From NCBI GenBank assembly GCA_025449115.1, contig JAHLKC010000082.1:1-64000 (forward strand): a stretch of DNA of 64,000 nucleotides, read 5' to 3'. The stretch's first letter is position 1; every line of letters starts with the position of its first letter. Under the pieces are notes generated by a model that saw only the letters and a list, made by a program, of their open reading frames with translations, ran no database searches and had not been told where the DNA came from. Of this stretch, positions 1,660 to 38,100 are shown piece after piece. A program made the position numbers and the translations under genes. The DNA is from Chytridium lagenaria. Its lineage: Eukaryota > Chytridiomycota > Chytridiomycetes > Chytridiales > Chytridiaceae.

Positions 1660-4600
1660 TCATCTTCTGACGGGGTAAACTGTTAACAATGAGCTTGGGA
1701 ATGGAACCTCCATGATGGCTGTTACAACCGCAAGAGCAGGAGGCGTTGACACATCCATGGCCTCTAATACTTTGGAAAGGTATGAGACGTCGGTCCAAAG
1801 CTGCCTTGATGCTTCAGGACCCAACACGGCGTTCTGTTGTGGCTGCGGTTGTCCCACTGATACGGGATGAATACGGAGGATTGCTGAAACGTAAGACGCG
1901 ACAGTGGCTTTCGAGATAGAGGTGATCCACAAATGCATGACATCCTCATCCTCCTCCTTTTCCTCTTCATTCTTGTCCATCAATCAGGTTCGCTTGACTC
2001 CACCTTGCTCTCAGATGTGAGCGAATTCAGCTGGCTGAAATCCCTTTCTTCCAAAAAGGGTAGCGAACGTGCCGAAAATCGAGAACTCCATCATCTCCAC
2101 CGTGCACCTCAATCCTTTGCGGCAAGGTAAGAAGGTGCTCTCCCACACGGGTCACGTAAGGCAATGGCGACAGACTGAACCTTGGAAGTGCATTAGCCCC
2201 ACCAGCCGCATCGGAGGATGCCCATTCGGAGATGCGGAACAGTAGCCAGTTGACGATCAATAGGAACGAAGAGAGAGTCGAAGATTAGCCGTTGTGAAGA
2301 CACGATTATAGCCCTCAACGGCGAAAGTACTGGTGAAAGTAGGTTGAGATGAGGTAAATCCGTTGGAATTTGGGGCGGTCCCTTTGTTTCAGACGATGCA
2401 GCGCCTTCACCTCCATTTCTCTCTTGCGCTTGGTTTGGCGAAACAGTAGCAAGCAATTGATGTAAGCGCATGCTATTCAGCGAGGAGACTTGGAGAGCAG
2501 CCAGAGCTGTATGGCACGGCGCTCTCCATACCTCGTTGTTAGCAAGCGTTTCGACTGTAGGATCTGGTTGCCTCGGAGATGACGAAGAAGACAGATCCAT
2601 GATGGAGTCCTTGGAAAACAAATCGATATCAGAAGCACCAAGCGCAACTTCCGACTCCCCCAAATTAGAATTATAGTGGTTTAGATTTCCCTCATCACTA
2701 TTGTAGCTCGTGCTTATAATCGGCTTAATTTTAGTTAGAGCCTTCATCATTCCCTTTTCCAACACTTCCATTCTGTAAGATAGAGTACGGGAAACGGCGA
2801 GAACTCGGAGCCCAACTTGAAATCTCATCCACTCGGACTGTGTTGTATCTTCTGCTGAAGTTTTCCCAACATTTCTCGAGGAAACCTGACGTCTACGAAC
2901 GCTGGGAGAGGTGGGATTCCCAGAAAGCGAAGCAATTGACATCCCTTCATCTTCCAAACCCATTTCATCCCGGATCTGGAAAATGGCAGAGGCAAAAGAA
3001 TCTAAGGCATCCGAAAGGTAAGCATTGACAGCCTCGATCAACCCAGGGAATCCGTATCCTGCCGTAAGGTCGAGACACCGCAAAAGAGCAGCTTCAGCAT
3101 TTGAGAAAACCTTTGGCACGGCTTCTGTGAGAGAACGCACGGCATCATTCAGGAATGATGAAGAACGGTTTCCTGGAGGGTTAGAAAGCGATGGTGTTCC
3201 TGTCCGAAACACTGTCTGCAAGATCTCTAACGATCTCAGCGCACTTGGAAGGCACCGCGAAAGATGGGCCGTTTCTAGTGCTCCGTAACTCTGCTGGAAC
3301 GACAAGAAGGCATCAAAGACCGGTTGCCCCCAAGACGGGTCCACAGGTGCACTATTCCGGGATTGGTCAAAGGCACCATCATCAGAGTTTGAGAAGTCAC
3401 TTCCATCCAATGCACCTAATGCGGTCAGGGCGCTTGCACGTTTCTTTGCAGCTCCCTTAATGATATTTGATGTCGCGAGAGGAAGAGGATATAAGACACT
3501 CTTTTCAACCTCCCGACACCATTCCACAGTCACAATGTAGCATCTGATCAACGTTGGAAGGAACTTATTTTGCGAATGTCGTAAAAGCCTTCCCGCAACA
3601 GCTGATTTTATGTCTCCTCCTCCCACTACGTCAATACTCGAATCACTATTGTCAGATGGTTCCATGCTCACAAGACCCTCCAGCTTCGCTTGCAGCGACG
3701 GTTTTAAAGCTGAGAACGTTTGATGAATTAAATGCACGATTGCATTTCTTGGATTTGGGAATGTTTGAAGGCACCATCTGAGATTATAAGAATCATCAGT
3801 CAAAAAGCATAAAAACTAGAAGAACGTGAATGGCATTGAAAACCTACTCTATCTCTGAGTTTAACATAAGTAGCATTTCATCGTAGAAGATTGATAAAAC
3901 ATCAACGAAGCCGGGCATAGCTTCAATATTAGATTTGGCATGAAGTCGTTCTGTCCCGTCAATCCACACTTTCACTACAGGAGCTCTCCTTGTTCTAAAG
4001 TAACAGGATTCAAACTCGGTCTTCCTCCCAATCTGTTCAAACAAAATCCAGCACTTCCGTGCTGCCTCCAAATCACGAGACTGAATGGCAGCCACAAGCT
4101 TAGGTCCAAGATCCAATTCAAGCCTATTTCGAAGCTTGCCGAGCAAAGCCTTCCGCTCCTCTTGTTCTGGCGTGCCTTCCAGTAGTTGAAGCGATCTTGA
4201 CGCCTCGAGAAGTCTTTGGCCAGCTCTCTCCAAATCACCGGAAACAAATATGGCGTCAAGTTCTGTCGTTAAAGTGCTCCAGTTTTCTGTTTCCCTCAGT
4301 CGTTGGCGCGTCATCTCCATGCGAGTTCGGACCTTGTCGAGCTGCTGCAAGGCTTCAAATGCATCGTTCACTGATGATGACGATGCCTGAGGTAGTATTG
4401 CCAAGGATTTGTTGGGGAAATTTGAAGTCCCTCCGGACCTCGCAGCCCTATCAAGCTCTTGACTAACAGAACTTATCAACGTTGCCAGAGATGAAGCGTC
4501 GCGAGCGATGGCAGCAATATCATGCAGTAATCTGGGTACACTCTTAACGGCATCATCAGCAAGCTGGTCCAGGCGAGCGGAAAGTTCTTGCGAGTAAAGG

Positions 4601-4974
4601 TGCAACTGATGCTCGATGGTGGATGCATGAATGTCGAGTGGAGACATAATCATACTGCGATGTGGAGCTTGTACCGTACTTGGCTTTAATGCAACAGGTT
4701 TGGGAGATGTAGAACCACTTAAGTCGCTATTCTGCCCAGGAACGGAACGGCCCAGATCACTTATGGCATCAGAATCGTCAATGATGCTGGGGGATACCAA
4801 CTTCAAGAGAATCTGAGAATGCAGAGAAATCAAGACCAGAGGGGGAGGATGTTGATAGTGCATGTAGAGCAGACGGATCTACTGCATTTGATGCATTGAT
4901 GCTAGCATCGGAGAGAGCTTGATTAATCCATGCCTTCAAGTTAAAGTCGGGCTCGCAAACTCGTCGATATCCAT
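1660..4974 (-). CDS. COG7: Conserved oligomeric Golgi complex subunit 7 (COG7)
   Basis: COG7 belongs to lobe B of the COG tether that returns Golgi glycosylation enzymes by retrograde vesicles. The start at 4974 (MDIDEFAS) leads into DFNLKAWINQAL, the family's N-terminal WIN motif. A helical vesicle-tether region follows (IEHQLHLYSQELSARLDQLA, PRLLHDIAAIARDASSL). After a clear 70-bp intron (3778-3847), which restores NSEIEWCLQTF, come the conserved SWGQPVFDAFLSFQQSYG and LPRFSLSPLPYVTRVGEHLL blocks and the C-terminal SKATVASYVSAILRI helix. The frame must shift near 4950, 4805, 2230 and 1985, so the assembled gene is not a single open frame. At roughly 1,080 residues it is longer than the animal protein (about 770), mainly through Ser-rich inserts. 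The identification is firm; exact ends are less so. Confidence 0.85.
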
Positions 4975-8571: not shown

Positions 8572-10993
8572 TTAGTTACGTCCAAGAACCCAGTAAGTTC
8601 TCATGGAGCCCTTCCCCTTCACAGCCATGGTCTCACACGGCGAAAGCTTAAAGTTCTTGTCCTTGATCAAATCATAAGTACTCTCTGAGATATGGATCTG
8701 CATAGCCTTTGAAGTAGATTCCATTCTCGACGCCAGTGTTGACAGTATCTCCGACAATACACCAATGCGGGTTCTCTTCACCAAGGATACCAGCCGTGAT
8801 GGGACCAGAGTTAAGACCGACACGAATTTGGATGGACTCGCCCATGGCTGTCTTGAATGTCTTGACCATCTCGATAACATCTGGGGATTTAGGGGGTAAG
8901 ATTTTCGGGTGCGGGGTTCGGGTAGGACTTACCCAGAGAGAAGTTGGTGGCACGTTCAGCATGATCGGCTTTACGCTCTGGAGCACCAGTGACACCGAGG
9001 TAGGCGTCGCCGATAGTTTCGACCTTGTACATTCCCCAGCGTTTTGCGATAGCGTCGTATTCAACCCACAACTTGTTCAAGGTTGCAAGCATATCCTTCG
9101 TCTATAAATAGAATTACATTAGTTTGATGCCGGTAGCGAAATAATAAAAAAACCTATATGGCAAAACTCACCGTGTTCTTTGAGGACAAAACGGTAAAGT
9201 TGCAATATCCGAGAAGAAAACAGTGACACTCTGGTACTCCTCCGCAGAGGTCGCCTTGCCGCTCTTGATCTGGTCCAAAATACTAAACACGTCGTAAATA
9301 TACTCACACCATGATAATGAAATACCTTTGGGCATCATCTTTGACAAAAAGCCTGTCAGAGTGCTCCATGGCGCTCTCCAACTCGTTGGCAATGGTCGAC
9401 ATGACGGACACCTTAGCGTTCTGAAGCTTCTTCAACGGTAGCCGTGACGAGAATGAGGGTAACGAGGACTTTGGAGAAGACGTCAGCCGTGCAGAACATG
9501 GCTTCACCGGTGGCGTAACTCACAATGCCGCTGATAGGTAAAGATGTTATAAAAAACCTATCCGAGATAACTCAAAAGAAGAAAAACAACTTACGCTTTT
9601 TGGCAGTGCCAGGCGATAGGGACTATGGTCATGAATCGGCGCATTAAAAAGAATCGGAAATGTGAACGTCGCAACAAAAAAAACGAAAAGGAAACGCTCA
9701 GCAAAGCCAGAAATAAAAAAAAAGGAAAGGGGAGGGGTGGAAAAACGTCGCCGCAAGAAATTGTAGTGGCAGAGCAAGACAATAGTTTTCCTGAAAATAA
9801 ACAAGGCTATATAAAAACTTACATGCGAACCAAGAGTAACACGTTGCCGCCCTTGCGGCCTTCAACGCGCCAGGATCCAACTTGCTGTCGGTTTCACCAT
9901 CAGCCGCCATGGTGAACATATCCCAGAGACCACGGAAGACATAGGTAAAGCAGGCAACGGCGCAGGTAGAGAAGAGGTAGGAGTAAGGTTCGCGAACGGT
10001 GGACGCCAAGAAACCAAAAGTGAGGAGAAGGGAAGTCAATCTTCATGGTCTTTTTCCCGAGAACCTTGTTCTTAGTGATGTCGCCTAATGGAATAAGAAG
10101 ATGAGTTGAGCGGGAAAGAGATTTAAAAAAGGAAGAAAGAAATATTGGGGGGACTCACCAATCATTTTGATGGTAACGGGGCAAGTGGTATACCATTCCA
10201 AAAACCTCGCCGGATCCATGGGCTTTCCCGTCGAATCCGAAAGCGTCGGAGTGAGTCTCATGTAATGCACAACATAAGTAGCAGCAGCAATCGCGTTGAT
10301 CCAAAACAAAACCAGCGTCATGCTTCTTCTCTTCATTCTTTGCACCCCTGTATCCAAGGTACGCAAAGACCGATCCGATTGAGAAAGCCACAATAGCGTA
10401 CTCGTAGGCGTTATCCGCATATTGTCTGTCATACTTCTTCAGGCGGTGCTTTCCAGAGAGGGTATAGGCGGCAAGGGCAACGGTGAGGACGCACCAGATG
10501 ATGGCGCTTGCGACAATGTGGCGCTTGGTGGAACCGTCGTCACGCTTCGAGTCCATCGCTTTGTTCATCTTTTCCTTCCAAGAGAGTTTCCCTGTAGCAG
10601 AGTTCAGCATGGTGACGAGTTCCTAACCAATGTTACCTTCACCAGAGCCCTCATTGTTAGACGATTCCGTTACTGTAATGAAAAGGTTGGCGTGCAAGTA
10701 GAAAATAAAAGTTAGGGGTGGCGGGAAAGGAGCCAAAAATATCCAAACCTGGCTTGTCCATAATCTTGTGGCGGTGGCAGAGTGCTTGCACTCATCACAT
10801 CGTTGTGATGAGGTGTTGATAGCGTATTCTGTGCAAGAGCACTCGTTGCAAGGTCCACCTACAAAGTCACAATAGAGACGGCAACGTCAGTAAGTCGGCT
10901 CCTAAAGGTCCATCGAAGCAGCAAGGAGATACAAGATGAAATCCAACTGAAAGTAGATCGGCACATACGGAAGTTCTTGTCACGGTCGAGCAT
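8572..10993 (-). CDS. RGC: Rhodopsin-guanylyl cyclase (opsin fused to class III guanylyl cyclase)
   Basis: This is a light-activated enzyme making cGMP, known from zoosporic fungi, where it mediates phototaxis. Nine exons are inferred: 10993-10969, 10858-10749, 10622-10159, 10084-9823, a TM6 exon ending at 9595, 9530-9326, 9282-9172, 9101-8933 and 8880-8572; about 580 residues. Order: Cys-rich N-terminus (CNECSCTEY...CDECK), cytosolic stretch, extra N-terminal helix, seven-helix opsin, coiled coil, cyclase. Opsin marks: [10 protein letters not shown] in helix C, MTIVPIAW in helix F, and TADVFSK in helix G with the retinal Lys at 9470-9472 and Asp four residues before it. Cyclase marks: [19 protein letters not shown] and [18 protein letters not shown]; Glu (9018-9020) and Cys (8759-8761) are guanine-selecting residues. 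One-base frame shifts occur near 10335, 10039, 9433, 9203 and 8733. The TM5-TM6 junction (9822 to about 9690) lies in poly-T and is unresolved. Confidence 0.93.
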
Positions 10994-12150: not shown

Positions 12151-14481
12151 TTAATAATGCCACACCTTCCGTTGCACCGTCGCCATCTTCCTCACACTCT
12201 CAATCCCCATATTCGGATCCCTCTCCCGCTCCCTCACAATCGCATCCATCGCCTTCTTCCGCTCCCCCAACCATTTCTTCTCCTTGACCATCTCCACATA
12301 TCTCTCCAACACATCCGCCTCTTTCATCATAGTGAACGACGAGAACTCGAGGGCGGTGCGGAAATTCAAACGAACGTCATAAGGGCTTGTAAAGATCACT
12401 TCACAGCCTTGTTTAAGGTGAGGTTTAGGTTTTTTAGGGGGGGAGTGGGAGGATCTGAGGCGAGGGCTTCTTCGAGTTCGATTTTTGGGGCGCGATGGAG
12501 GTCTCCGGCGATCATGGTGCATTTGGCTTTGGATGGACCTTCTGAGCCTAGGACGCCTTCTTCACCGAAATAGTCGAGAGGGTGAAGCACAGAGATGATG
12601 ATGGAATTCTTTCCCGTGTTTTGGGTGGGTGTTTTTCGGACAGAGACTTTTCCTGATTTGACAATGTAAAAGTATTTGAGATCATCCCCTAGTGAATGAA
12701 GGTTAGGTTTTGATAAAGTTGGCGTGGTTTTTGTTTTTTTTCAATAGGTGTTTTACCTTCTCTGTATATCACTTCGCCGTAAAGATATTTGCGGACTTGC
12801 ATGTTCATGGATACGGAGAGGAGGGAACCCCTGGTCCAACTTGAAAAGACGGGCATACGACGTAGAAAAGAGTACATTTCCAGGTTTTGCTTTTCATGAA
12901 TAGACTTTATGATTCTATTATAATCCTCCTACAACCGCGATCAAAGTTAGCAACACCACAACAGGGGAAAAAAGCATCAATTATGGTATCCAAAGTTTAG
13001 GGTATGCGTAATGCGGGTTCAAGAGAATAACAACGTTTGCAAAAGACAATATCTTTGGACATTGGGGAAGAAGGTAAAAAAAAAAAAAAAAAAAAAAAAA
13101 TCACCAATAAAAAGGATACACACCTTCTCCACCTTGATCAACTCTGTCCTCTCATCCGTGATAATAGTCGCCGACCTAGGCGCATCCGCCACCAACGCCA
13201 AATCCCCAAACCCCTCTCCCCTCCCCAACTGTTTGACAGCCGCCATATCAGTCAACTTCCCACTCCTACTAATCTGCACAGTCACCCGTCCCTCAAAGAT
13301 GATAAACCACGCAGTCCCAGTATCCCCCTGCTTGAAAACAACCCGTTCCTTTTCCAAACACGAATACTTTGCAACGCGACACAACTCGGTGAGGATGAAA
13401 TCACTAAACTTTTCAAACGCCTTGAAGGAACGGAGACATCGAAACAGGGTATCAATGTCCGCTCTTGTTCGATCGTATGGTGAGCGTTGTAATGATGGAC
13501 GGATGAGGGATTCATGGAGTTCAGGTATGGCGGTATGAGAGTGGATGATATCTTTTTTTAAGGGACGTTTTCGCACCCTTTTTTTCCCATCGTTGATCAA
13601 CTCCACATAGTTTTTTATAAAGGTGTCAACGGAGAAAGGCTTGTCTTGTTTCTCATCATCAGATTCTAATTGGAGGATCCGGAAATGCGAGGCATCTTGA
13701 CCGTTTACAGAGGCTTCAATGACTTTCCGTTGGAAAAAGGTGCGCACCACCATTGCCTCTTTAGCGTTAAAAAGAATAGGACGAATAGGGGATGCAGGTC
13801 TTGATGGTTTCAGTTGTTGTCGGACAGGAGCAGATTGAGGTCTTGAAGTCACTGAACACGATGTGGCATGAGAAGGTCCACGTTTCAAATCCGCTTTATC
13901 ACACGTTCGAGCAGTTAAAGCAGGAGCAGATTGAGGTCTCGCATGTTTTTCTTTCCGCAATAAAAGCGCCTCAGCATCATCGTCGACAAAGCTTTGGGTT
14001 TTCCCAGGCAAAGGTTTAGATCTACAAGGGGAAGCAGGTCGTGACAAGCATTTCTCAAATTCCCGCATAAATTGATGATGCAAGTCTTTTGACGCTTGAG
14101 AATGCGCGATCCGGGTTTCCCTTGTAGCGTGTTTTCTTGGTGGTGGAGGGTTTGTAGCTCTCATTGCGGAAAACACTTCGGCGACATCCATCAATCGTCG
14201 TGTATCCACCTCCACGTCGGGTTCGGTTGGTCGTTTATCAGGGGATGCGGGTCTGGATGGTTTTGATGGGCTCGGGGGACGTGAGAAGCCGTTGAGGAGG
14301 TATTGGTGAGGGGTGGTGAATCGAAGGGATCTGTGGAGGGGAGTTGATCGCGATGGGTTTTTACTTTTTTGATGGTGGAGAGCATGGTGGTGCCGTCGTA
14401 TGGGATGGTGGAGGACCATGTGGAGGGTTGTGGGGGTTTTTTAGGCTTTGTTGGAGAGACGTGAGGGGCTGAGGCCGTCAT
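12151..14481 (-). CDS. Tandem cyclic-nucleotide-binding-domain protein, disordered N-terminus
   Basis: A soluble protein with two CNB folds and no kinase, channel or exchange-factor domain, so a candidate cNMP sensor or adaptor. Its N-terminal half is disordered and has six [S/A]RPxS[P/A]P motifs (SRPASPDKRP, SRPASPCRSKP, SRPASPIRP and variants). CNB-A carries FKQGDTGTAWFIIFEGRV and the phosphate-binding cassette GFGDLALVADAPRSATI: the ribose Glu is Asp, the phosphate Arg (13175-13177) is kept, and Ser follows it. CNB-B (YREGDDLKYFYIVKSGKV, then YFGEEGVLG) keeps the Glu but has no clear cassette Arg. Introns are 12929-13123, which holds a T24 tract, and 12689-12756. Frame shifts near 14330 and 12430 are needed; start 14419 is an alternative. 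It is the next gene upstream of the opsin cyclase on the same strand. Confidence 0.8.
13077..13100. repeat. A24 homopolymer (T24 on the coding strand)
   Basis: An uninterrupted run of 24 A on the plus strand inside the first intron of the CNB gene, just downstream of the donor site at 13123. It is a likely spot for assembly length error. Confidence 0.9.
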
Positions 14482-27915: not shown

Positions 27916-29538
27916 ATGGCCATAATGTTGCAAAAAAAGCGAGTCCGCAGCAACCTCGTCACTATCGCAGCCCTCGTCATCGTCATATGTTTGATTCAGT
28001 TTTTGGCTACGCCGGAAACATGAATCCGTCGGCCATTCGGTTTCGGTTGATTCAGGTAAACTCATCATTGCACCCGTCAGGGTCATTGCTGATATGCATT
28101 ATCAGGGACTGTACAGCGAATCGGACGGATCACAACCACAGCGCAGTCGCTATGCATACGATCGGATGAGTTGTTGTCATCAGAACTAGAGGACGGCAAA
28201 ATTCGGGAGCTTTCAGCCAATCTTCAGGTCTATTCGGCGTTGACACAAGAGTATTATTCGAGGAGGTTATGGTTTTCAACAAAAGACAGTACGTAATAAC
28301 GTGTAGTGAAGATTATAACTAGGCTCTAGACTGGCTTGAAGACTCAGATTGCACGTATGGAGCGGCGGTTGTTTCCGTGGCTTAACCAGAACGTCACAAT
28401 GCACACTCTTCCAAAGACGTTTCGTGGGAGAGGTATTGTGATTGCGGCAGGCTTTTGGCAGCTTAGGAGTGCATATGTTACTATTAAGAGTATCCGTGAA
28501 GCTCTAGGTTCGTCGTGTTTTACTTGAAGCATATGTACTAACGCCAGGTCTTCTAGGCTCAAGTTTACCCATCGAGATATTTTACAATGGCGACGAAGAA
28601 CTTCCTGAACAGTCCGCCGATGAGCTTCTCAAGTTCCCATTCGTAAAACTTATCAACCTTGCCACATACATTGACACCCACGTTACCTCTAGTTGGGGAG
28701 TGAAACCGTTTGCCCTCCTCTTCTCGTCATTCAAAGAATCCATTATCATTGACGCTGACAGTATGTTTCTACGAGATCCTGAAGAATTGTTTTCCTTCAG
28801 TGGATATGCCCGGACTGGGAGTCTATTGTTCCGGGATCGCACAGTATCTGGCTCGACTGTGGAGGGAAAGAATTGGATTGGGAAAATACTTACTCAACCT
28901 TCTGCGTACGCATTGAAACACAATCGAATCTATACGGGCGATTCGATACATGAGGGGGAAAGTGGGGTGGTGGTTATGCATAAAGGGAAGAAGGCAAATT
29001 TTGATGCCCTCGTGTTGACGGCTTTGATGAATTCTGTCGCGCATAGGAATGAACTATGGCAGATTTTTTACGGTATGTGATGAGCTTTTTTTATTATTGG
29101 CCATCGTTTTTAGACTGTGCTAACGAAGTTACAGGTGACAAAGAAAGTTGGTGGCTGGCCCACGAACTTATGCACGCCCCTTACCACCTCGCTAATGGCG
29201 GAGGCGGTGCTATTGGCTACACAGCCTTTGAAAACAACTCCACCTACGTCTGCGGCGGTCTTCTCCACGTTGACGAAGCTTGGCGACCCTTCTGGTTCAA
29301 CGGCGGTGTGATCGCTAACAAACATTTTGAAGATGGAAAACAAGTTCTTATTAATTACACACATTGGATGACGGATCCGGATTACAAGGACGTTCAGTGG
29401 ATTTGGGAGGAGAAGGATAAACCGTTTTGTATGAAAGAAAGGCAGGGAAGGGAAGTGTATGGGTTGACGGAGGGGCAGATGGGTATTGCGGAGGGGTTAG
29501 TTAGGGCATGGGAGGGGGCGACACATATCCATGTTTGA
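27916..29538 (+). CDS. Golgi alpha-1,3-mannosyltransferase, MNN1/GT71 family
   Basis: A type II Golgi membrane enzyme that adds alpha-1,3-mannose to N- or O-glycans. The start MAIMLQKKRVRSNLV leads straight into one signal anchor (TIAALVIVICLIQFL). A one-base shift near 28018 and an intron (about 28056-28126) lead to RSDELLSSELEDGKIRELS. Two further introns follow (28289-28322 and about 28507-28557). The catalytic domain has GRGIVIAAGFWQLRSAYV, the DxD motif in ESIIIDADSMFLRDP, EGESGVVVMHKGK, and KESWWLAHELM with WFNGGVIANKH near the end. Length and block order match GT71. It lies head to head with the RRM gene. Confidence 0.85.
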
Positions 29539-35147: not shown

Positions 35148-38100
35148 ATGCCCCGTTCCATCGAACGTTACTCGGAAGAGTCGATGCGTCAATGTAATCT
35201 CGTGTTAACCCTTCTTGAACAACGTCAAATATGCGAAGAAACTTATTCAAGGGGTTTACGTAGGGCATTTTTAACATCCACTTTTAACCTCGTATAGGAC
35301 AAATCGTAACGGCCCTGGAGGGATTTGGACTATAGAGGATCCTGAAACGGATGCGATATCATCGACCCTGTACAGTTCGTAAGTTTCCAACATATCTGAT
35401 TTTCACTGAAATTCACGTAAAGGTCTCTATGGACAGCTATAAAAACTATCCTCGGGAACATTGAAAAGTCCGCAGATTCACATGTACGCGTCATGGCTTT
35501 TCTATACGGTGTAAACTGACTATGCTGCCAGATGAAACTCTCGCAGAGTATTCAGAAAGACGTCACGGAACTTTCAAGGATTTCTTGAAATCGTTTGAAT
35601 CCAAGAAGCGTGTGGTAGGTTTTATTAAATATGAGCCTATCTTAACGAATACTTCAAAGCAAGTAAATTTGTGTTTGGATATTGATAGAAAGTTGAATAC
35701 GGCGGGAATGAATTTGCAAAAGGTTTGTTAAAAAAAAAGGCCGCGTTCTTTTGCGAATACTCCATCATTTCTGCTTCCTTAATGTATGCAAAAGAGACCC
35801 GTCGAAGTTTCCTTCCTCCAGTACTACTATACCTAAGAATGGATTAAAAGCCCTTCTTCTGCTTTGACCTTTATTAAGCAGAGTTTTGATTATATTTGGT
35901 ACAGGCAAAACAAGAACTTGACGCTGCCCGCCATCACTCCTACGATACGACCGAAACCCTCGTCCGCGCTCAAACCGATCACCAAAAAAAGCGTGAAATC
36001 GACCGTCTGATCCACCGGAGCACCACTGCAACGGACCGAGTCGAAACCCTAACAAAACTCGTTTTAACGCATGAAAGTGAATTCAATAACCTCCGAAATG
36101 GATACGCGGCAGAAGTTGAGCCAGTAAATAAGGCACTGAGGGAGATTGAGGAGATGAGACAAGTGAATGTGAGGAAGGCTTTAGGGGATTTGAACTTTTT
36201 AGAGAGTGTGGCTGTGGGAAGGGTTGCTAAGTACGTGGGGAGTGGAGAGGAGGTCATGGGGGTTGTGGATACGGAAAATGATTTGAGAGTTTTAGTGCTG
36301 AGGTGGTAAGTTACAGAACACTAGCCTTTTCCAATTTTACATACTTTTATTACGATAAATGTCTTTCCATATGTGCATTGCAATATATGCATGTTTTATC
36401 ACAGTATACTTTTCTTATTTTTTATTAATTATTTGAGTCATTTTTCTGACCTCTTTCACACTCTATCGTACCGTCCGCATCTATCTCAAATGCTAATTGA
36501 TATCCCTAGCTTACCGACGACCCTGTCCTCAACACCTCCCTCCTCCCTCGCAACACCATATTTTCTGGCCCTCTCCGTCTCCGCAAAGGTGACAATCTAA
36601 GCCGTCCCTGGGTCCCATCTGAAATCGCCATGACCCCTGGCTTCCTCTACATTCTCGGCAACCAATCCACCTCAACGACCTATTCATCCACCTCCAACCC
36701 CTCCACGCCAACCCTCATCCCGCTTGCCGAAGGATCCGTGCAAGTCTCTACAGTTGATGACAGTTACTTTCAGACACCCTGGTGCTTCCAGGTGATCGCG
36801 TCTGATACAAATGGAGGCAAACGGAGTGTACTAAATTTTGCGGCGGGGACAGCGGATGACCGGGACATGTGGATGTATCATCTGAGAATGTATTCGACGT
36901 GCTGTGCGAAGTGTTTGGGGTTCTACAGGGATGATGGAGGCGGCAGCACTTTGAGTGGTGTCACCAGCCCTTCAAGTAGTGTCGCGAGTCCTTCAAATGG
37001 TGTTTGTAGTCCTTCGAATAACGTTGTGAGCCCTACGGTAACTGGTTCTATGAGGAGTGGCATGGTTAGGAGTTTGCAATTATGGGTAACGGAGGCTAAA
37101 GAGCTTGTCGGGGTTCCCGCAGGGAAATGCAATACGTATTGTATTATATTGTTAAATGATGTCAAGCAGGCGAGGAGTTGTGTCAAGAGCGGGCTATCAC
37201 CGTTCTGGGGGAGGAGTATAGGTTCAGGTCAGTTGAGACTTGATTTAGTTTTCCCTTCTACGTGCTACCCCAAATCTTGTATAACTTTTCTGTTAAATAG
37301 CGACATATCGCCGTGCAAGACTCGGTTGCGTTTGATCATATTTCAAAGCGGGCTATCCAATCGAGACCACGAAATCGGATACGTTAGCATCAACCTGAAC
37401 TCCCTGAAAACTGGAAAACGTCACGAAGATTGGGTAAGCCCTTCCCTACATCTTTAAATAACCCTTAATAACAAATTTGAAGTATCCTATCAAAAAATTC
37501 GGAAAAGCCAATGACGATGATTCGACATCCGCCGGCTCCATCCGCATTTCTTATATCCTCCTAGCCTGCCAAACCCTCCCCACTTCCTCCTACCAAATTT
37601 TCATCGAAACTATCACAGAACCCACTCTCCTCTGCGCCCGTACGATCGCTCCTCTCCTTACCCACGAACGTGACGAACTCTGCAAAACTCTCCTCAACGT
37701 GCTCACTTCCCTTTCTCTCGAAGTGACCTCCTTGAAATCCTTAACCGCCGCAGAAATTGTGACAACGGATGACCCGAACATTATATTTAGAGGAAATAGT
37801 ATTGCAACAAAGATGTTGGATCAGTATATGAAGATTGTGGGGATGGGATATTTGCATGGTACTATTGGAGCACTTGTGAAGGGAGTGTATGAGGCGAGGG
37901 AGAGTTGTGAAGTGGATCCGTGTAAGATTGGGGCGAAGGGGGTTGAGAAGGATTCAGAGCAGTTGAAGAGGAGATGGAAAAGGCTTATGAATCATGTGAA
38001 TGCTTTTTGGGATGCAATTTCGCAGAGTTCCGAGAAGTGTCCCATGTAAGTCCATACATTTTCGCGTTTTCCATGCGATTCCTTTCTTCATCTCTTCCCA

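Follow-up and report, generated by a model that had tools for sequence, protein, structure and literature searches.

A rhodopsin-guanylyl cyclase gene of Chytridium lagenaria, broken in frame in its assembly, as a candidate light-driven cGMP receptor of zoospores

The window analysed here, 64,000 nucleotides of a Chytridium lagenaria contig (C82), carries on its minus strand a gene in which a microbial opsin is fused to a cyclase, with coding exons that run from the start codon at 10993 to the stop codon at 8572. Frame-aware spliced alignment with a purpose-written aligner, guided by three orthologues (P0004, P0003 and P0002), returned the coordinates 8572-10993 of the original prediction. Instead of the nine exons then proposed, our own model has ten, reached by spliced alignment together with manual reading and all on the minus strand. 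Exon 1 (10969-10993), placed by spliced alignment and direct reading, begins MLDRDKNF. Exon 2 (10749-10858) encodes a Cys/His module, and its downstream splice end was read manually; exon 3 (10637-10672), which encodes a low-complexity tail, is a manual model whose splice phases fit, as P0004 gave no guide there and the program read through. The opsin occupies exon 4 (10159-10591; an additional helix, TM0, and helices A-C), exon 5 (9823-10084; helices D-F), exon 6 (9595-9622; helix F, PIAWHCQKA) and exon 7 (9326-9530), which holds helix G with the retinal lysine and the linker. The cyclase starts in exon 8 (9172-9282) with VTVFFSDI, containing the first metal aspartate, continues in exon 9 (8933-9101) with the guanine Glu and the second metal Asp, and ends in exon 10 (8572-8880) with the guanine Cys, the NxxxR motif and the stop codon.

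Exons 3 and 4 are separated by an intron of 45 nt (10592-10636, minus strand, GTAACA..CTACAG) that contains an in-frame TAG at 10625-10623. The program placed this intron at 10627-10592 (36 nt); the deposited model of the gene, P0001, agrees with the 45-nt form. A nonsense mutation at 10625-10623 was considered and rejected, since the TAG is intronic and the intron position is common to other rhodopsin-guanylyl cyclase (RGC) genes of the genome: it lies within one residue of an intron in the RGC1-like gene of contig C246 (C246m) and in the NeoR-like gene C246p, a comparison of positions and not of phases. The introns at protein positions 327, 395, 433 and 489 match those of the genome's other RGC fusions exactly, again in position and not in phase.

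Also on the minus strand, at 12160-14419, is a gene whose soluble product carries two cNMP-binding domains. Its deposited model, P0122 (14419-12399), ends early, at a frame change near 12428, and the Dinochytrium relative continues. As the product is soluble and not a channel, we rejected this neighbour as a linked cGMP effector, and we do not count it as part of the receptor; linkage to the RGC gene is not supported, because the Dinochytrium relative sits on a contig of 21041 bases and the RGC genes there on contigs of 14010, 41772 and 48546 bases. Elsewhere in the window, a COG7 gene (2196-4863) is read in two open stretches with one intron between them in the deposited model. In a Mannosyl_trans3 gene (28508-29535) two open frames overlap and Pfam matches the first of them, which suggests one frame change or an intron. 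For a RasGAP-like gene (36510-38046) the matches, spread over two frames, are to C2, to RasGAP and, slightly below the cut-off, to PH.

The exon frames of the fusion gene match Pfam Guanylate_cyc in two frames (5e-13 and 3.8e-10) and Bac_rhodopsin in a third (1.5e-05). A search with the read-through protein found 3620 proteins at E <= 0.001, with E values against other RGCs down to 4.7e-251 when P0001 is excluded. Among the best 120 of these 3620 matches, the first 114 have a cyclase domain and most also an opsin domain; the species-named ones within these 114 are chytrid or blastoclad fungi, except for one synthetic construct. The cyclase part matches the solved Catenaria and Blastocladiella (CaRGC/BeRGC) cyclase domains 6SIR, 6AO9, 5OYH and 6AOA at 6.8e-92 to 1.5e-88. 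Pfam, RGC and structure matches thus bear out the naming of the gene as a chytrid rhodopsin-guanylyl cyclase. Its opsin is 73% identical to that of Dinochytrium P0002 and 67% to that of Phlyctochytrium P0004, and the cyclase is 87% identical to both and 76% to that of Blastocladiella.

The gene is not, as had been supposed, a new homologue, being already deposited as P0001, 'hypothetical protein BC829DRAFT_399579 [Chytridium lagenaria]', with no functional name; our literature search for Chytridium lagenaria together with rhodopsin found no paper. P0001 omits stretches at most of the frame changes described below, among them exon 8 with VFFSDI, and also SRMESTSK; both sequences are encoded in the DNA of the contig. 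The public model is therefore misleading, as it is without the first metal aspartate that the DNA encodes.

In bacteriorhodopsin (BR) numbering, the opsin carries E85, T89, C90, T93, P186, D212, S215 and K216. The type I opsin with its retinal lysine in TADVFSK was read correctly in the original prediction, and the Bac_rhodopsin match adds to it. The reading of a class III cyclase with its metal, guanine-selecting and transition-state residues complete holds as well: the full catalytic set of six (D, E, D, C, N, R) is present, namely the metal Asp pair, the guanine Glu/Cys and NxxxR. TM0 is a 19-residue stretch before helix A, recognised by hydropathy only. Fusion through a coiled coil had also been proposed; the linker is indeed homologous to that of known RGCs, but the coiled coil itself was not confirmed, the best heptad register being 54% hydrophobic at a/d.

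Exon 2 encodes the pattern C-x2-C-x-C-x11-C-x2-C-x-[HC]-x4-H, whose strict form occurs in 23 of 114 matches among those listed. A relaxed form was found, among the matches listed, in 30 of the 34 D212 rows with a tail of at least 65 residues, a cut-off picked after the strict pattern had been counted, in none of the 57 shorter-tailed D212 rows (many of them perhaps cut short by gene models) and in none of the 21 E212 (NeoR-type) rows, 20 of which are short-tailed. It never arose in shuffled long tails. In an alignment of 17 examples that were selected because they fit the pattern, the invariant positions are five Cys and one His. No Pfam family reached the cut-off over this stretch; the best per member were Ephrin_rec_like (4 of 17, 8.4e-4) and Zn_ribbon_RPAB4 (2 of 17, 0.0044), and the best PDB match of a module profile, the RPB12 zinc ribbon, was weak (E 0.021). 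Removal of residues 1-90 of BeCyclOp is reported to raise dark activity and to lower light-induced cGMP (PMC4569695), and CaRGC without residues 1-43 is said to gain activity (PMC8575461). The word zinc is absent from the main texts of these two papers and from PMC12264004, and the module goes unnamed in the texts searched. It may bind zinc and restrain the enzyme, and could thereby explain the altered activity of these enzymes after deletion of the N terminus.

We put the probability that this is a genuine rhodopsin-guanylyl cyclase gene of C. lagenaria, working as a light-driven cGMP receptor in zoospores, at roughly 0.84. In the assembly, however, the clean exons of the original prediction and the single uninterrupted coding sequence expected of an RGC are absent: even after splicing there is no continuous frame, and orthologue-guided alignment finds 6-8 frame changes in about 1.7 kb. 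They lie near 10775 (exon 2), 10337-10322 (exon 4), 10031 (exon 5), 9424 (exon 7), 9203 (exon 8) and 8734 (exon 10). The five from about 10330 down were recovered with all three guides, the one near 10775 is supported by P0004 alone, and a compensating pair near 9348/9329, also in exon 7, was seen only with P0002. Every change was fitted as 1-2 nt, and the P0004-guided reading has no in-frame stop outside an intron. Two other calls were dropped as artefacts, namely 10728 (P0004), a read-through of an intron, and 10102 (P0002), caused by extra residues in the P0002 model.

Taken at its maximum (8 in 1688 nt), the density of frame changes is far above that of the two neighbouring genes (Poisson 7e-9), and this excess is what speaks for a young pseudogene, in which the changes would be real mutations and the strain would have lost the receptor. 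The neighbours gave no frame change in 2.6 kb for COG7, a weak control compared with its own deposited model (the sole other match in its search is 25% identical), and one in about 1.9 kb for the cNMP gene, where the call at 12428 was kept and those at 14325, 14059 and 13944, in the poorly conserved N-terminal half, were dropped. Against HSP70 and CCT genes, which show 9 frame-switch junctions in 24.5 kb of matched sequence, the Poisson value is 3e-7; a junction here is a point where the match resumes in a different frame after no more than 30 nt, and changes inside a match escape this count. We nevertheless consider a pseudogene unlikely. All the changes were fitted as 1-2 nt, there is no in-frame stop as described above, and the full set of catalytic residues is retained. 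The terminal branch has a length of 0.195, much like the 0.187 of P0004, and thus shows no excess of replacements. Of 252 columns that its sisters hold invariant, the protein differs at 13 (5.2%; six sisters, 2.0-6.3%). On the other side, at near-invariant columns of the whole family there are 3/75 departures, as compared with 1/75 for C246m, 3/72 for C246p and 5/73 for C258m; two of the three fall in the compensating-pair segment. A second DNA copy of the C82 gene that could serve as a check was not found in the assembly.

Further evidence comes from an RGC1-like/NeoR-like gene pair that is present twice in the assembly, on contigs C20 and C246, with 96.4% identity over 9.3 kb. With counts that vary with the reference protein used, the RGC1-like gene has no frame change against P0024 on C246 (C246m) and five on C20 (C20m), and the NeoR-like gene has four against P0074 on C20, seven on C246 and two in a copy on C258. 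C20m differs from its twin C246m by six indels. Over both genes of the pair, C20 and C246 differ by 18 indels and 28 substitutions in 3148 aligned coding columns; 16 of the 18 indels are single-nucleotide and 17 are frame-breaking, while 23 of the substitutions are synonymous and 5 are not (raw dN/dS 0.07 and 0.05). Frame breaks should not survive selection that is this strict on amino acid changes, and most of these indels are therefore probably assembly errors. Coding sequence has about half the indel density of other sequence (18 in 3148 columns and 67 in 5989), and some indels may therefore be real and filtered. At the coding rate, 9.7 indels would be expected in the C82 gene. Since one copy of another RGC gene is intact and its twin is broken at a similar density, which also counts against a pseudogene, most of the breaks in the C82 gene are very likely assembly errors. 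That opsin and cyclase are separate products would agree with the frame changes standing between them in the assembly, and we regard it as highly improbable: both domains are present in all 8 top-scoring matches, and introns 327, 395, 433 and 489 are placed as in the genome's other fusions.

A tree was built from 72 rows, comprising 4 C. lagenaria readings, 52 named proteins and 16 metagenome proteins picked by hand among the matches listed; omissions include the C20 copies, fragments, deposited C. lagenaria models and animal cyclases. The C82 protein falls in a clade of seven rows, including two each from Dinochytrium, Phlyctochytrium and Blyttiomyces (support 100/100). RGC1/2-type (17 rows) and NeoR-type (16 rows) proteins form clades with 100/100 support each, and these two join with one metagenome row in a group (100/99) that excludes the C82 clade. 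A tree constrained to unite the C82 clade with RGC1/2 is 27.3 log units worse and is not rejected at 0.05 (AU p = 0.069). Among the matches listed, all three types are represented in Dinochytrium, in both Phlyctochytrium species and in C. lagenaria; for Blyttiomyces the best 120 of 3620 matches include two C82-type genes and a NeoR-type gene, and no RGC1/2-type. Head-to-head neor/rgc genes are described as common in chytrids (PMC12264004), and C. lagenaria also carries such a published-type RGC1/NeoR pair, on C20/C246. The C82 gene is not head-to-head with neor, as all opsin matches on its contig are its own. NeoR-type copies of C. lagenaria lie in C20:317000-326500, C246:1-9900 and C258:9000-18900. 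In all three, position BR-89 (D140 in R. globosum NeoR) holds Ser in place of Asp. This naturally occurring change in the counterion triad is absent from the other 13 NeoR rows that have a residue at this position. The C258 copy, with about 71% DNA identity, N changed to D at the NxxxR place and changes in 5 of 73 near-invariant columns, is possibly decaying.

Whether such a receptor would work alone or with NeoR is a finer question, and the sequence evidence tips us slightly towards a homodimer. R. globosum RGC1 and RGC2 are obligate partners of NeoR although the known catalytic residues are present (PMC8815786, PMC12264004), and an obligate NeoR partner for a functional C82 protein is accordingly a less probable but serious alternative. 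The isolated NeoR cyclase is inactive, for which the missing NxxxR has been offered as a reason, and the isolated RGC2 cyclase is inactive too (PMC12264004); complete catalytic residues therefore do not prove a homodimer. The cytosolic N-tail also counts against one, being shorter, at about 80 residues by our own estimate, than the 146 residues of BeCyclOp (PMC4569695). NeoR-type genes exist in the C. lagenaria genome, the AU test left a grouping with RGC1/2 standing, and Blyttiomyces combines C82-type and NeoR-type genes without an RGC1/2-type gene among the matches listed. In favour of the homodimer, the C82 clade lies outside the RGC1/2 and NeoR group, the gene is unlinked to a NeoR gene, and an RGC1-type partner for NeoR is already present in the genome.

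Position 93 is T or M in all 7 rows of the C82 clade and L in all 17 RGC1/2 and all 8 Blastocladiomycota rows, and S215 is found in 5 of the 6 C82-clade rows that have a residue aligned at this position, as well as in 2 of 17 RGC1/2 rows. We take position 105 of proteorhodopsin to be BR-93. Leucine at 105 goes with green and glutamine with blue absorption (PMC7693036), replacement of Ala-215 by Thr has been used for blue-shifting rhodopsins (PMC4479019), and blue RGC2 and green RGC1 differ at position 186, where proline blue-shifted two rhodopsins (PMC8815786). Together, T93, P186 and S215 suggest that the C82 receptor would absorb bluer than BeRhGC, and its absorption would probably also lie to the blue of that of the genome's own RGC1-type receptor, a prediction we hold with some reserve.

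In the pathway we propose, retinal on the helix-G lysine would absorb light, a conformational change would pass from the opsin via the linker to the cyclase, and the cyclase dimer would convert GTP to cGMP. The probable target of the cGMP would be a cyclic-nucleotide-gated channel whose gene lies elsewhere in the genome; opening of this channel would alter zoospore swimming. A circuit from RGC via cGMP to a CNG channel has been described for Blastocladiella (PMC9616733). A channel candidate is present at C2:313556-311486. Over several unspliced frames it shows Ion_trans matches (1.7e-4 and 2.4e-4), the motif TTTGYGD and a cNMP match (1.0e-5), and a circuit of the Blastocladiella type could thus run in C. 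lagenaria. That the fusion drives phototaxis, as originally stated, was too firm: here we can only infer it, and in R. globosum detection of phototaxis 'has proved challenging' (PMC12264004).

A wider picture, which we offer tentatively and ourselves think doubtful, is that an older RGC of the homodimer type has been retained next to RGC1/NeoR in C. lagenaria and its relatives and tuned to blue by T93, P186 and S215, so that a blue, green and near-infrared set would be reached by a different route from that of R. globosum, where RGC2, which is almost a twin of RGC1, takes the blue slot; the zinc-ribbon-like Cys/His module would act as a dark clamp on the cyclase in those activator-type RGCs whose N terminus is complete. 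The C82 protein is a candidate blue-shifted, possibly self-sufficient light-activated cyclase for the optogenetics family, and its lineage, predicted colour and N-terminal module are the parts worth testing.

Compared with known systems, the protein resembles the homodimeric RGCs of Blastocladiomycota (BeCyclOp/BeRhGC, CaRhGC) in architecture, in E85/T89/C90, D212/K216 and P186, in its complete cyclase and in the N-terminal Cys/His module; it differs in having T93 and S215 where they have L93 and A215, and its opsin is only 36% identical to that of Blastocladiella. With RGC1/RGC2 of Chytridiales (R. globosum; C246m) it has in common the fusion, a D212-type opsin, a complete cyclase and the Cys/His module, and with C246m also four intron positions, plus a fifth that is off by no more than one residue. 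RGC1/2, however, belong to another clade, with L93 in 17 of 17 rows and T186 in 11 of 17, and the C82 gene does not stand beside a NeoR gene. NeoR is like it in the fusion and the cyclase fold, but has Glu at BR-212 (16 of 16 rows) and is expected to carry a third carboxylate at BR-89, where the C82 protein has D212 and T89; the Cys/His module is absent from the NeoR-type rows, and in C. lagenaria NeoR a K replaces the NxxxR arginine, whereas the C82 protein keeps N and R. The Dinochytrium, Phlyctochytrium and Blyttiomyces orthologues, P0002-P0007, are the proteins that belong with it in one fully supported clade.
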